Notes under the pieces: model-generated
What the model was told of the DNA's origin: nothing
Database searches by the model: none
What the model saw: only the letters and a program-made list of their open reading frames with translations
Part shown: positions 32,404-56,129 of the stretch, in pieces
How positions within the stretch are numbered: the stretch's first letter is position 1
How the letters are laid out: every line of letters begins with the position of its first letter
Origin: Pseudanabaena sp. BC1403
GTDB lineage: Bacteria > Cyanobacteriota > Cyanobacteriia > Pseudanabaenales > Pseudanabaenaceae
NCBI RefSeq assembly: GCF_002914585.1
Contig: NZ_PDDM01000001.1
Coordinates: 124,001-188,000, forward strand
Length of the DNA stretch: 64,000 nucleotides
Reading direction: 5' to 3'
Program-made: the position numbers and the translations under genes

Positions 32404-32440
32404 CGGCGCTTTGCGCCGCTAATCAATTCTTGGGTTTTAT
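32404..32440. repeat. Half of a family A hairpin abutting the previous one
   Basis: GCGGCGC-TTT-GCGCCGC is followed by TAATCAATTCTTGGGTTTT, the right-arm sequence of the copy at 16609, but the matching left arm is absent. It is followed by ACTTGGCGACAGCTATAG, the inverse of the left flank at 1040. It looks like the left arm was replaced or deleted by the adjoining hairpin. Confidence 0.75.
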
Positions 32441-53011: not shown

Positions 53012-53060
53012 CCCAAAAAAGAGAAAGGCGGCGCTTTGCGCCGCCTTTCTCTTTTTTGGG
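53012..53060. repeat. Triloop hairpin (family A), 23-bp arms
   Basis: The arms start CCCAAAAAAGAGAAAG and end GCGGCGC around the loop TTT. It separates the decarboxylase from the riboswitch and may terminate the former. Confidence 0.88.
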
Positions 53061-53087
53061 CTTATGTCTTACAATGATAAGACTATC

Positions 53088-53205
53088 GTTCGGTTCCAAC
53101 GGGTAACAGTCGTTGGAGGAAACGGGGAAAGTTTGGTGTAAACCCAGCGCTGTCCCGCAACTGTGATGAGATGCTTTAATCTCTAAGTCAGGATGCCCGC
53201 CGATC
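53088..53205 (+). promoter_or_regulatory. Cobalamin (adenosylcobalamin) riboswitch
   Basis: The conserved B12-box elements occur in order: GGTTCC, GGGGAAAGTTTGGTGTAAAC, CCAGCGCTGTCCCGCAACTG, then AGTCAGGATGCCCGCC. Spacing matches the class I fold. Downstream a GAATCTC-TTTTC-GAGATTC hairpin (about 53212-53231) could serve as the expression platform. It normally lowers expression of transport or synthesis genes when B12 is plentiful, but here the next genes are not known B12 genes. Confidence 0.92.
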
Positions 53206-53262
53206 GCAAAGAATCTCTTTTCGAGATTCGTAAACATGTTCCTTTTCATCTGCGAGGTATAG

Positions 53263-53379
53263 ATGATGGTTTGTTCAAAATTTTTAGAAGCTTTACAATT
53301 GTTTCAGCTTTTACAAAAACTGTGCCAAGGCGATCGCATCAGGAAGACTAACAGGGAGTCCGATGCTGCAAGACTATAA
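53263..53379 (+). CDS. 38-residue leader ORF between riboswitch and orphan gene
   Basis: The ORF MMVCSKFLEALQLFQLLQKL...ends RESDAARL. GAGG lies 5 nt before the first ATG, a good ribosome-binding site. The ORF runs past the start of the next gene by 17 nt in another frame, an arrangement suited to translational coupling. The peptide is Leu/Gln-rich and amphipathic. Whether it is made is unknown. Confidence 0.5.
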   Translation: MMVCSKFLEALQLFQLLQKLCQGDRIRKTNRESDAARL

Positions 53380-53830
53380 AGAACGTTGGGGCATCTGTCG
53401 TTCTTGGGAACCTCAGTTTATTCGAGATAATTTTTTACTAATTGGATATCATGCCCTGAGAGGTTTTACAACCTCAGGGAAAGGGATTACAGTTTGTACT
53501 GTTGTACCACCTGCTGCTGATTTTAAGCCGAGTTTTCACATTTGGAAATTTAGAACTCAGTTTATAGCAGCAGAATTTGCCAAGCCCTATTTACTGGAAA
53601 TGGGTATCAGTTCACGACAGATTCCGTCATTAATACAGGCGATCGCCGCGTATGATCCTCAGCAAGAGATCATTCTGGCAATGAATATCGATCAACAGCT
53701 CGAAGTTTACTGTCTCCAAAACCTAAAGATTTCTCCCTCAGAATGCTACAAACAAGTATGCGATCGCTGGGATGAATTTATGCCACATGAGTTACCGCCC
53801 GAATCATCACATCGTTTTATTAGAATCTAG
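53363..53830 (+). CDS. Unrecognised protein under cobalamin-riboswitch control
   Basis: The 155-residue soluble protein is rich in aromatic residues (WGICRSWEPQFIRDNFLLIGYHALRGF near the start) with no transmembrane helix or signal peptide. Three dispersed cysteines in the C-terminal half (YCLQNLKIS, ECYKQVCDRWDEF) and one near the N-terminus could bind metal or a corrinoid, but no known B12-binding motif (DxHxxG) is present. ATG 53363 is preceded by AGGGAG. Its position 158 nt after the riboswitch makes it the main candidate for a new B12-related function. Confidence 0.75.
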   Translation: MLQDYKERWGICRSWEPQFIRDNFLLIGYHALRGFTTSGKGITVCTVVPPAADFKPSFHIWKFRTQFIAAEFAKPYLLEMGISSRQIPSLIQAIAAYDPQQEIILAMNIDQQLEVYCLQNLKISPSECYKQVCDRWDEFMPHELPPESSHRFIRI

Positions 53831-53860
53831 GATGGGCAGCGCTTTGCGCCGCCCATCCTA
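53828..53860. repeat. Triloop hairpin (family A), 15-bp arms, one mismatch
   Basis: TAGGATGGGCAGCGC and GCGCCGCCCATCCTA flank the loop TTT. It begins in the stop codon of the riboswitch-controlled gene. Confidence 0.85.
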
Positions 53861-53899: not shown

Positions 53900-55066
53900 G
53901 TGGAAAATATAATTAAAAAATCAGATTTTGTTCTTACTCCTTATATGAAGAGCAATGATCTCTGGGCAACTTATCAAATCCTGAATACCGTTATTCCCTA
54001 TATAGTTTTATGGTTTTTAGCAGTTAAAGCCGCAGCAGTATCTTTTTGGTTCCTGCCACCGATCATCATTTTGATGACTCTATTTTCATTGCGATGCTTC
54101 TCTTTAATGCATGATTGCGGACATTATTCACTTTTTACTTCCAAAAAAGTGAATAGAGTTGTAGGCTTCTTTTTGGGCGTGATTAATGCTATACCTCAAT
54201 ATCCATGGTCAAGAGGTCATGCTTATCATCACAAAACCAATGGTGATTGGGAACGATATCGTGGGGTTGCAGCATTTCTCTCTACTGAAGAATTCTCTAA
54301 GCTCAATGACACCGATCAAAAGCTTTATGCCGTAATGAGACATCCATTAATGTCTTTTTTGGGAGGTTTTTTCTACCTTGCAATCAGACCAAGATATGCA
54401 CTAATTGCAGGAAGCTATGATTTTATTGGTCATATATTTTCCAGTTTAAAGAAAGACCCTCGCATGGGTTTAGCGGCAATTATCTCTTCTCACAAATCTA
54501 GAAATTGGTATACGGGAGCGGAATTTATAGATTTGATGCTCAATAATATTTGTGTAATCGGCAGTTGGATTTTCCTTAGCCATTTGCTTGGAGCAGGCTT
54601 CTTTTTAGGTGTTTACTCAATCAGTTTAACTTTTTCAGCAGCGATTTTTATCTGTGTATTCTTTGTTCAGCATAACTTTGAAGACTCCTATGCTCATAAG
54701 ACTGAAGGTTGGGACTATCTGCTTGGAGCACTTGACGGTAGTAGTTATTTAGAGTTGCCAACAATTTTGAAGTGGTTTTCCGCAGATATCGGTTTTCATA
54801 ATATCCATCATCTTTCTGAGAGAATTCCGAACTATAATCTCGAAGCTTGTCATAAGGAAAATATTCAACTTCTCTCAAAGGTCAAAACTCTAAGGCTCGG
54901 TGATATGCTTGGTTGCGCCAAGTTTGTGTTGTGGGATTCTGAAGCAGGTAAACTAATTTCGATCGCTGAATTTCACAAGTCAAAATCTACAGCTCTGGAT
55001 ATAGAGCAAAGTCTTCTAAATCAAAATAAGCTGGAAGAACTACTTGTCAAAAATGGTAAGGCTTAA
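53900..55066 (+). CDS. Membrane fatty acid desaturase
   Basis: The 388-residue membrane di-iron desaturase has three histidine boxes: HDCGH (about residue 73), HAYHH (about 110) and HNIHH (about 306). Four main hydrophobic helices lie in two pairs around them. The box pattern fits the FADS (delta-12/omega-3-like) group acting on acyl chains in membrane lipids, though the regiospecificity is not deducible. It starts at GTG 53900; the first ATG, 17 codons on, is less likely. The next gene follows after 5 nt. Confidence 0.87.
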   Translation: MENIIKKSDFVLTPYMKSNDLWATYQILNTVIPYIVLWFLAVKAAAVSFWFLPPIIILMTLFSLRCFSLMHDCGHYSLFTSKKVNRVVGFFLGVINAIPQYPWSRGHAYHHKTNGDWERYRGVAAFLSTEEFSKLNDTDQKLYAVMRHPLMSFLGGFFYLAIRPRYALIAGSYDFIGHIFSSLKKDPRMGLAAIISSHKSRNWYTGAEFIDLMLNNICVIGSWIFLSHLLGAGFFLGVYSISLTFSAAIFICVFFVQHNFEDSYAHKTEGWDYLLGALDGSSYLELPTILKWFSADIGFHNIHHLSERIPNYNLEACHKENIQLLSKVKTLRLGDMLGCAKFVLWDSEAGKLISIAEFHKSKSTALDIEQSLLNQNKLEELLVKNGKA

Positions 55067-55071
55067 TCTTA

Positions 55072-56049
55072 ATGAATTTATTTGTTGCCACGCTGGAAGC
55101 GTTCTCGACAGTTGCGATCGCAGGAATTGGCATTTATCTAGCTACAGCGCGTCGCTATCAATCTGCTGATTCTGTTGCTAACTCCTATGATCAATGGACA
55201 GAAGATGGCATTTTAGAGTTCTACTGGGGCGAACATATTCATTTAGGTCATTATGGCTCGCCGCCCCGTTCAAAGGATTTCTTGACCGCTAAATCTGATT
55301 TTGTTCATGAGATGGTACGTTGGGGTGGCTTAGATAAGCTACCTGCTGGAACGACTGTCCTTGATGTTGGCTGTGGTATTGGTGGCAGCAGCCGCATTTT
55401 GGCAAAAGAATATGGCTTCTCGGTAACGGCAATTACGATTAGTCCTGAGCAGGTCAAACGTGCTCAGGAGTTAACCCCAAAAGAGCTTGATCTACAATTT
55501 CAGGTTGATGATGCGATGGCGATGTCATTTCCTGATGCAAGCTTTGATGTGGCTTGGTCAGTTGAAGCGGGGCCACATATGCCTGACAAAGCTATTTTTG
55601 CAAAAGAGTTGATGCGCGTACTCAAGCCCAATGGGTTGCTAGTACTTGCGGATTGGAATCAGCGAGACGATCGTCAAGTACCTCTCAATATTTGGGAGAA
55701 GCCTGTAATGAAGCAACTCCTCGATCAATGGTCACATCCTGAGTTCTCAAGCATTGAAGGCTTCTCTGAGCTTTTGGAGGCGACAGGACTTGTCGATGGC
55801 AAGGTAACAACTTCTGATTGGACAGCAGAAACTCTTCCTTCATGGCTAGATTCAATCTGGCAAGGTGTAGCGCGTCCTAAAGGATTGATAAGTTTTGGCG
55901 TATCAGGATTTATTAAATCTGTGAGGGAAATACCCACGATTTTATTAATGCGTCTAGCTTTTGGGGCAGGACTTTGTCGTTTTGGCATGTTTAAAGCTGT
56001 GCGATCGCCTGTTAGCACAAAAAACCTTGTTGAGCCACTTACTCATTAA
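55072..56049 (+). CDS. 2-methyl-6-phytyl-1,4-benzoquinol methyltransferase (MPBQ/MSBQ type)
   Basis: The 325-residue SAM-dependent methyltransferase has an N-terminal membrane anchor (FVATLEAFSTVAIAGIGIYLATA). The sequence SADSVANSYDQWTEDGILEFYWGEHIHLGHYG closely matches the Synechocystis enzyme Sll0418. Further motifs are VLDVGCGIGGSSRILAKEYG as the SAM site and SVEAGPHMPDK, and the C-terminal FIKSVREIPTILLMRLAFG is highly conserved in this group. It methylates intermediates of tocopherol and plastoquinone synthesis. It is in one transcript with the desaturase. Confidence 0.93.
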   Translation: MNLFVATLEAFSTVAIAGIGIYLATARRYQSADSVANSYDQWTEDGILEFYWGEHIHLGHYGSPPRSKDFLTAKSDFVHEMVRWGGLDKLPAGTTVLDVGCGIGGSSRILAKEYGFSVTAITISPEQVKRAQELTPKELDLQFQVDDAMAMSFPDASFDVAWSVEAGPHMPDKAIFAKELMRVLKPNGLLVLADWNQRDDRQVPLNIWEKPVMKQLLDQWSHPEFSSIEGFSELLEATGLVDGKVTTSDWTAETLPSWLDSIWQGVARPKGLISFGVSGFIKSVREIPTILLMRLAFGAGLCRFGMFKAVRSPVSTKNLVEPLTH

Positions 56050-56076: not shown

Positions 56077-56129
56077 AAAATCGGTTTTTTGAAAGTCAGC
56101 CTACGGCTGACTTTCAAAAAACCGATTTT
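56077..56129. repeat. Triloop hairpin, 25-bp arms, overlapping the next hairpin
   Basis: AAAATCGGTTTTTTGAAAGT + CAGCC and its complement flank the loop TAC. Its right arm shares 11 nt (56119-56129) with the left arm of the following hairpin, so only one can form fully at a time. Confidence 0.9.

Follow-up and report, generated by a model that had tools for sequence, protein, structure and literature searches.

A cobalamin riboswitch ahead of a CcmS-like protein gene in Pseudanabaena and its recurrence across cyanobacteria

The window analysed here is a 64-kb stretch of DNA (64,000 nucleotides) from Pseudanabaena sp. BC1403. It contains a cobalamin riboswitch that is followed on the same strand by a short leader ORF, a gene for a 155-aa protein, and genes for a fatty-acid desaturase and a methyltransferase. 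The features of the locus are as follows.

53013-53059, + strand: terminator-like hairpin upstream of the riboswitch (hairpin scan)
53074-53218, + strand: cobalamin riboswitch aptamer (RF00174; Rfam score 61 bits, gathering score 31.5, E 1.2e-12)
53153-53158, + strand: aptamer loop L5, UCCCGC (read from the Rfam alignment)
53246-53266, + strand: expression-platform hairpin, stem 53246-53252 with 53260-53266 (folding)
53254-53257, + strand: GAGG Shine-Dalgarno site of the leader ORF (invariant in the window and four close relatives)
53263-53379, + strand: 38-codon leader ORF, overlapping the start of the 155-aa ORF by 17 nt (53363-53379)
53363-53830, + strand: gene for the 155-aa CcmS-superfamily protein of the riboswitch-linked family (ORF, homologues, fold, selection)
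53829-53859, + strand: inverted repeat without a T-run, between the 155-aa gene and the desaturase gene (sequence)
53900-55066, + strand: fatty-acid desaturase gene (PF00487 in Pfam), probable operon member
55072-56049, + strand: SAM-dependent methyltransferase gene (Methyltransf_11 in Pfam), probable operon member
56080-56126, + strand: terminator-like hairpin 3' of the methyltransferase gene and 5' of pyrG (hairpin scan)

The initial annotation called the cobalamin riboswitch clear, and the Rfam score, almost twice the cut-off, agrees. The RF00174 covariance model is matched whole (1-189 of 189), and this is the sole gathering-level Rfam match in the window. The riboswitch is also matched by a purpose-built model, R1, which was trained partly on this same riboswitch. 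The host genome has three cobalamin riboswitches in all, including this one. Another lies 5' of CobW and CobG genes, and a further one, on contig 3, is found 28 nt 5' of a gene for a 149-aa paralogue of the 155-aa protein. The host genome has a MetH match, but no MetE match was found in it. The hairpin just upstream of the riboswitch is the probable end of the upstream decarboxylase transcript. It holds one of three copies in the window of the hairpin core GCGCTTTGCGC (at 32406, 53031 and 53839), which is possibly a dispersed repeat. An inverted repeat similar to the one between the 155-aa gene and the desaturase gene is seen by eye at the matching site in four relatives, with its letters changed, and this element could limit co-transcription of the two genes.

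In the hairpin at 53246-53266 the Shine-Dalgarno site lies inside the loop and the AUG of the leader (53263-53265) inside the stem; the folding energy is -6.2 kcal/mol with a z of only -0.75, which is an ordinary stability. The L5 loop, UCCCGC, would pair with the GCGAGG of the downstream loop, with one A-C mismatch and one G-U. A GCG[AG]G loop is found at most 160 nt 3' of the aptamer in 86 of 96 riboswitches, and the platform hairpin has a common form, (C)AUCU-GCGAGGUAC-AGAU(G), in most loci. In five species, the window and four relatives, the aptamer core, the hairpin and the Shine-Dalgarno site are nearly invariant.

The 38-codon ORF with its GAGG site and its 17-nt overlap with the next start had already been described, and the coordinates agree. 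Across the same five species it is exactly 38 codons long, without indels and with an identical overlap. Its peptide changes almost freely (dN/dS 0.51-1.97 over 10 pairs), in contrast to the 155-aa protein, which purifying selection constrains (dN/dS 0.28-0.59). That the length of the leader is kept and its sequence hardly so is what translational coupling would lead one to expect, and the ORF is best read as a coupling leader. With that scatter of dN/dS and the fixed length, a functional peptide is unlikely. The idea that the ORF is a remnant of metE was rejected, as MetE operons have their own short leader, starting at the hairpin AUG, 5' of metE.

The arrangement varies from locus to locus. 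Leaders of 30, 30 and 62 codons (L082, L083 and L076) extend to the start of the homologue match, and leaders of 26-35 codons stop no more than 12 nt from that point in 13 loci, 12 from family f13 and one from f16. In three loci (L064, L066, L077) the homologue itself starts at the hairpin AUG. In the remaining loci, including those with MetE, the leader ends farther upstream or its AUG was not found. The leader stop is more than 100 nt 5' of metE in most MetE loci, and coupling can therefore not be the whole mechanism everywhere.

The 155-aa protein had been reported to belong to no recognised family, and the databases bear this out: it has no match in Pfam or NCBIfam at E up to 1, and the Meth_synt_1/2 domains of MetE are not matched in Pfam. 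The protein and 23 members of its family have no match in Pfam or NCBIfam to a known B12 transport, remodelling, isozyme or corrinoid-binding family. Matches of the 23 members in Pfam, NCBIfam and PDB sequences are weak throughout, apart from one lead, CcmS. In an excerpt of PMC11635287, CcmS is described as a dimeric carboxysome assembly chaperone that binds the 12-residue C-terminal tail of CcmK1. The NCBIfam CcmS model NF049993 has weak matches in 10 of the 23 members (best E 0.0058), short of its equivalog cut-off of 125 bits, and the 155-aa protein is unmatched by it at E up to 1.

An AlphaFold2 model made from 23 homologues, with no CcmS rows in the alignment (pLDDT 82.6), was searched against solved structures with Foldseek and VIA-align, and Synechocystis CcmS was the best match (9iur, Z 8.5, rmsd 3.3, 112 residues aligned, ∼14% identity). 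A further CcmS structure, 8zlh, reached Z 8.3 and the next chain Z 3.5; folds below Z 3.5 were not used. A second model, from an alignment that included CcmS rows, has the same elements (pLDDT 81.3) and was left out of the fold search. Profile-profile comparison against four CcmS sequences gave an E of 1.3e-5 and a probability of 80.5. The residues W15, F19, W32 (Leu in the window protein), F67, P99 and C128 are common to the family and the four CcmS rows. In contrast, G28, C45, Y97, W136 and F139 characterise the family but not CcmS (C45 is Ile in all four CcmS rows), and E138 is found in one CcmS row. Since C45, W136 and F139 differ, the binding surface need not be used as it is in CcmS. The homologues are of two types, with 76 and 31 rows, which often stand in tandem.

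CcmS proper occurs in 4 of 24 homologue-bearing genomes tested, each time at a site apart from the homologue, which argues that the family is a paralogue of CcmS; the predicted fold, the profile comparison and the shared residues all point the same way. That the protein is CcmS itself was rejected on account of these separate sites and the lack of an NF049993 match. In the host genome the NF049993 search found no CcmS proper, though its built-in controls were silent too, making this a weak absence. In short, the protein is like CcmS in its predicted fold and core residues, and differs from it in low identity, in genomic place, in its own Cys45 and C-terminal W-x-E-F motif, and in the cobalamin riboswitch upstream. 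The initial annotation had proposed a new B12 transport, remodelling or B12-independent replacement protein. No known family of these kinds in Pfam or NCBIfam matches, and CcmS chaperones are the only clear matches among solved folds.

The linkage to cobalamin riboswitches is well supported. Homologues were found in 23 of 58 relatives by searching with the protein, and their proximity to RF00174 matches in these relatives first suggested it. When 388 genomes of the class were then searched with a profile, 119 had matches; in 98 of them (counted by hand) the best match had an E no higher than 1e-20. The neighbourhoods were fetched, and R1, built from 26 riboswitches, was run on 98 sources, some of which had also been used for training. 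A same-strand cobalamin riboswitch is found upstream of the homologue in 91 of 97 loci from 92 cyanobacterial genomes. This number comprises 90 loci with the riboswitch in the fetched stretch, where that of L126 is matched only by R1 (26 bits with R1, short of the cut-off with Rfam's model), and L139, whose riboswitch lies just outside and is seen in L184. Rfam's own models, run on 13 sources, agreed with R1 except for the weak L126. Among the loci without a riboswitch, L102, L131 and L165 are truncated where their contigs end and L167 is a fragment of ∼40 residues; L127 and L128, with about 5 and 3.2 kb upstream and no riboswitch there, are exceptions. Chance would give ∼0.14 of 97 loci, a figure from rough inputs and related loci that serves as a scale and not as a test.

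Among 15 control loci of distant cousins (profile E ∼1e-7 to 1e-16), a same-strand upstream riboswitch was found in none, although one of these (L173) has only 0.3 kb before the contig ends and another (L179) has a riboswitch on the other strand. Loci L169-L178 hold another CcmS-superfamily subfamily of the genus, without an upstream riboswitch, and at 7761-7820 of L181 lies a Glutamine-II riboswitch. Seven extra Pseudanabaena homologues, outside the 97 loci, begin 28-37 nt 3' of a riboswitch. The check suggested in the initial annotation, whether homologues are found repeatedly behind cobalamin riboswitches or close to cobalamin genes, thus comes out in its favour, and the opposite outcome, homologues never associated with riboswitches, was not observed. 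The riboswitch, its linkage to the family and membership of the CcmS superfamily are all well supported, and the 155-aa protein is probably a member of the B12 regulon. The B12 link of the initial annotation stands, and the biochemical roles that it attached to the protein are not supported.

According to an excerpt of PMC3766115, genes under cobalamin riboswitches serve mainly B12 synthesis, B12 or cobalt transport, or encode isozymes of B12-dependent enzymes, and in Limnospira such a riboswitch is found 5' of metE (PMC8400943, excerpt). The locus resembles these cyanobacterial metE systems in riboswitch class, hairpin, short leader and operon position, but its first full gene is CcmS-like and the host genome lacks a MetE match. 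Some relatives of this locus have both genes. Of the 90 riboswitch-linked loci, 20 have a full MetE placed between the riboswitch and the homologue and 5 have a MetE stub there, and in 65 MetE was not found; the MetE of L067 passes the TIGR01371 cut-off and the others were named by tblastn to that copy. Four stubs (L113, L126, L134 and L135) are open mini-genes just 5' of the CcmS-like gene, each of them fusing 36-63 residues from the start of MetE in frame with its last 15-62; in L135 the last 15 residues were recognised by eye. The stub in L104 is frame-shifted, and L127, one of the loci lacking a riboswitch, has the C-terminal part of MetE only.

The state of MetE changes at least six times on well-supported branches of the homologue tree, though both copies of a tandem locus are in the tree, so that the number of separate events may be nearer half of this, and the count does not distinguish gains from losses. 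The tree has 107 rows, few columns (149) and many open forks, 13 of 120 rows having been dropped because their merged BLAST span contained a stop or because they were shorter than 115. Because of the stubs, at least some of the changes must be losses. To judge from these loci, metE has appeared and disappeared repeatedly beside a riboswitch and a homologue that remained in place. As the homologue persists even next to a metE stub or with no metE at all, the client of the protein does not have to be MetE.

Where a genome has a near-full-length MetE match, a strong homologue is commoner: 21 of 36 such genomes have one, against 77 of the remaining 352 (P 9e-6, odds ratio 5; counted by hand, and the genomes are related). 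In 16 MetE loci from genomes without a listed homologue, a same-strand riboswitch lies 157-1053 nt 5' of MetE in 13; of the others, L205 has its riboswitch on the other strand and L203 only 0.2 kb upstream. The tail of MetE was also considered as a client peptide and rejected: compared by eye, no C-terminal motif separates homologue-bearing MetE loci from the others (in this comparison L090 duplicates L067, and L184 and L139 are one gene, so that labelling them as loci without a homologue was wrong).

Further genes recur beside the homologue. Neighbours were defined by BLAST clusters within 4.5 kb, each cluster named from one representative. DUF1636 (PF07845) is near the homologue in 35 of 97 loci, CobW in 16 and ZnuA-like proteins in 5. 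A gene of the DUF1636 cluster starts at the riboswitch hairpin in L140 and L154, as does a HupE/UreJ gene in one locus read, L107. CobW, HupE/UreJ and DUF1636 are B12-regulon neighbours and protein families distinct from the 155-aa protein, and CobW also stands behind another of the host's riboswitches. DUF1636 is itself a candidate for a second uncharacterised B12-regulon protein.

Taken together, we consider it fairly probable that the locus is a B12-repressed operon of a Pseudanabaena-like cyanobacterium, in which a leader-coupled, CcmS-like adaptor or chaperone is made for a client during B12 shortage. When cobamide is plentiful, the L5 loop of the riboswitch would hold the loop of the hairpin at 53246-53266, and this contact would hide the ribosome site and the AUG of the leader. 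The leader would remain untranslated, and through its 17-nt overlap with the next gene the 155-aa gene would be silent too. When cobamide is scarce, the leader would be translated and the 155-aa protein made by coupling, probably along with the desaturase and the methyltransferase. The protein would then act as a small, probably dimeric CcmS-like adaptor or chaperone that grips a peptide tail or surface of its client. The gene order, the riboswitch and its linkage, the family, the metE stubs and the conservation of the leader come directly out of the computation. That cobamide turns the operon off is read from the layout of the sequence; we infer likewise the coupling in vivo, the co-transcription, the long-range RNA pairing and the client, and adaptor or chaperone action is suggested by analogy with the fold relatives. 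More tentatively, and with somewhat less than even confidence, the family as a whole may be a previously undescribed set of B12-repressed CcmS-like adaptors with a part in the physiology of B12 shortage, perhaps holding an apo-enzyme or aiding metal delivery through the family-specific cysteine pair. The gene outlives metE, to which it is often linked, and would thus mark a new branch of the cobamide-starvation response.

Other explanations deserve weighing. The protein may serve MetE specifically, as its chaperone or partner, and persist through drift or in a new role where metE is gone. This would account for the enrichment of strong homologues in the related genomes with MetE, for the overlap of some 10-17 nt between metE and homologue frames in several loci, and for the retention of the homologue-side end in some metE stubs. 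It is nonetheless rather unlikely: of the 90 riboswitch-linked loci 65 lack MetE, and purifying selection still acts on the protein in the MetE-less clade of the window; MetE can do without the protein, as 13 of 16 MetE loci from genomes without a listed homologue are still riboswitch-led; and no shared MetE tail was seen by eye. Of a similarly low probability is a corrinoid or metal (cobalt or zinc) binder that uses two conserved cysteines to serve B12 or cobalt handling, an idea close to that of the initial annotation. Cys45 and Cys128 occur together in 94 of 107 homologue rows, and all four CcmS rows have Ile at the place of Cys45; most rows have Tyr or His at position 29; and the neighbours named above (DUF1636 in 35 loci, CobW GTPases in 16, ZnuA-like proteins in 5, HupE/UreJ in L107) would suit such a role. 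However, Cys128 is also present in CcmS and is thus not specific, no corrinoid-binding family in Pfam or NCBIfam is matched, and B12-related neighbours are to be expected behind such a riboswitch anyway.

A second CcmS, with a carboxysome role that has come under B12 control, is less probable still. CcmS is indeed the only solved fold with a clear match, and CcmS proper was not found in the host, where the search controls were silent as well. On the other hand, the 4 genomes of 24 that do have CcmS proper carry it elsewhere than the homologue, the C-terminal motif is unlike that of CcmS, and no ccm gene was noticed in passing among the neighbours. It is very improbable that a vanished metE operon left the riboswitch and leader behind and that the gene hitchhikes with them. 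The metE stub beside the riboswitch in five loci and the repeated changes of metE on the homologue tree would fit, but the near-invariance of aptamer core, hairpin and Shine-Dalgarno site in five species would not, and neither would the dN/dS of the protein (0.28-0.59). In other Pseudanabaena, moreover, the hairpin lies directly on the homologue's own start. The B12-repressed operon with a CcmS-like adaptor or chaperone is the reading that we prefer.

A literature search on titles and the openings of abstracts, with most subscription papers beyond its scope, found no paper on the family. Among the excerpts seen, that of PMC1242208 lists a putative cobalamin riboswitch, that of PMC13159521 uses CCMs for CO2 concentrating mechanisms, and neither these nor the excerpt of PMC4850488 bears on the 155-aa protein. 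What emerges is a family without a Pfam or NCBIfam model, found in 98 of 388 sampled cyanobacterial genomes (best E 1e-20 or lower) and almost always riboswitch-led at the loci inspected. Through this one gene, the cyanobacterial response to B12 running out becomes testable. The family would also extend the CcmS fold beyond carboxysomes, and its loci form a natural series in which metE is a full gene, a mini-gene or lost while the partner next to it is retained.

The genes downstream of the 155-aa gene recur as well. The desaturase type of the window is found near homologues in 14 loci, and a second type of fatty-acid desaturase lies 3' of the homologue in 12 loci (L073, L074, L111, L112, L119 and others), some of which also have a cyclopropane-synthase-like methyltransferase. 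The BLAST cluster of the methyltransferase at 55072-56049 is near homologues in 32 loci. This protein presumably resembles the cyanobacterial MPBQ methyltransferase; none of the NCBIfam models listed for it reaches its cut-off. In one genome (G049:C15:163771-163940) a weak RF00174 match of 24.3 bits, below the cut-off, lies 27 nt 5' of a related methyltransferase gene, which may be under the control of its own riboswitch.
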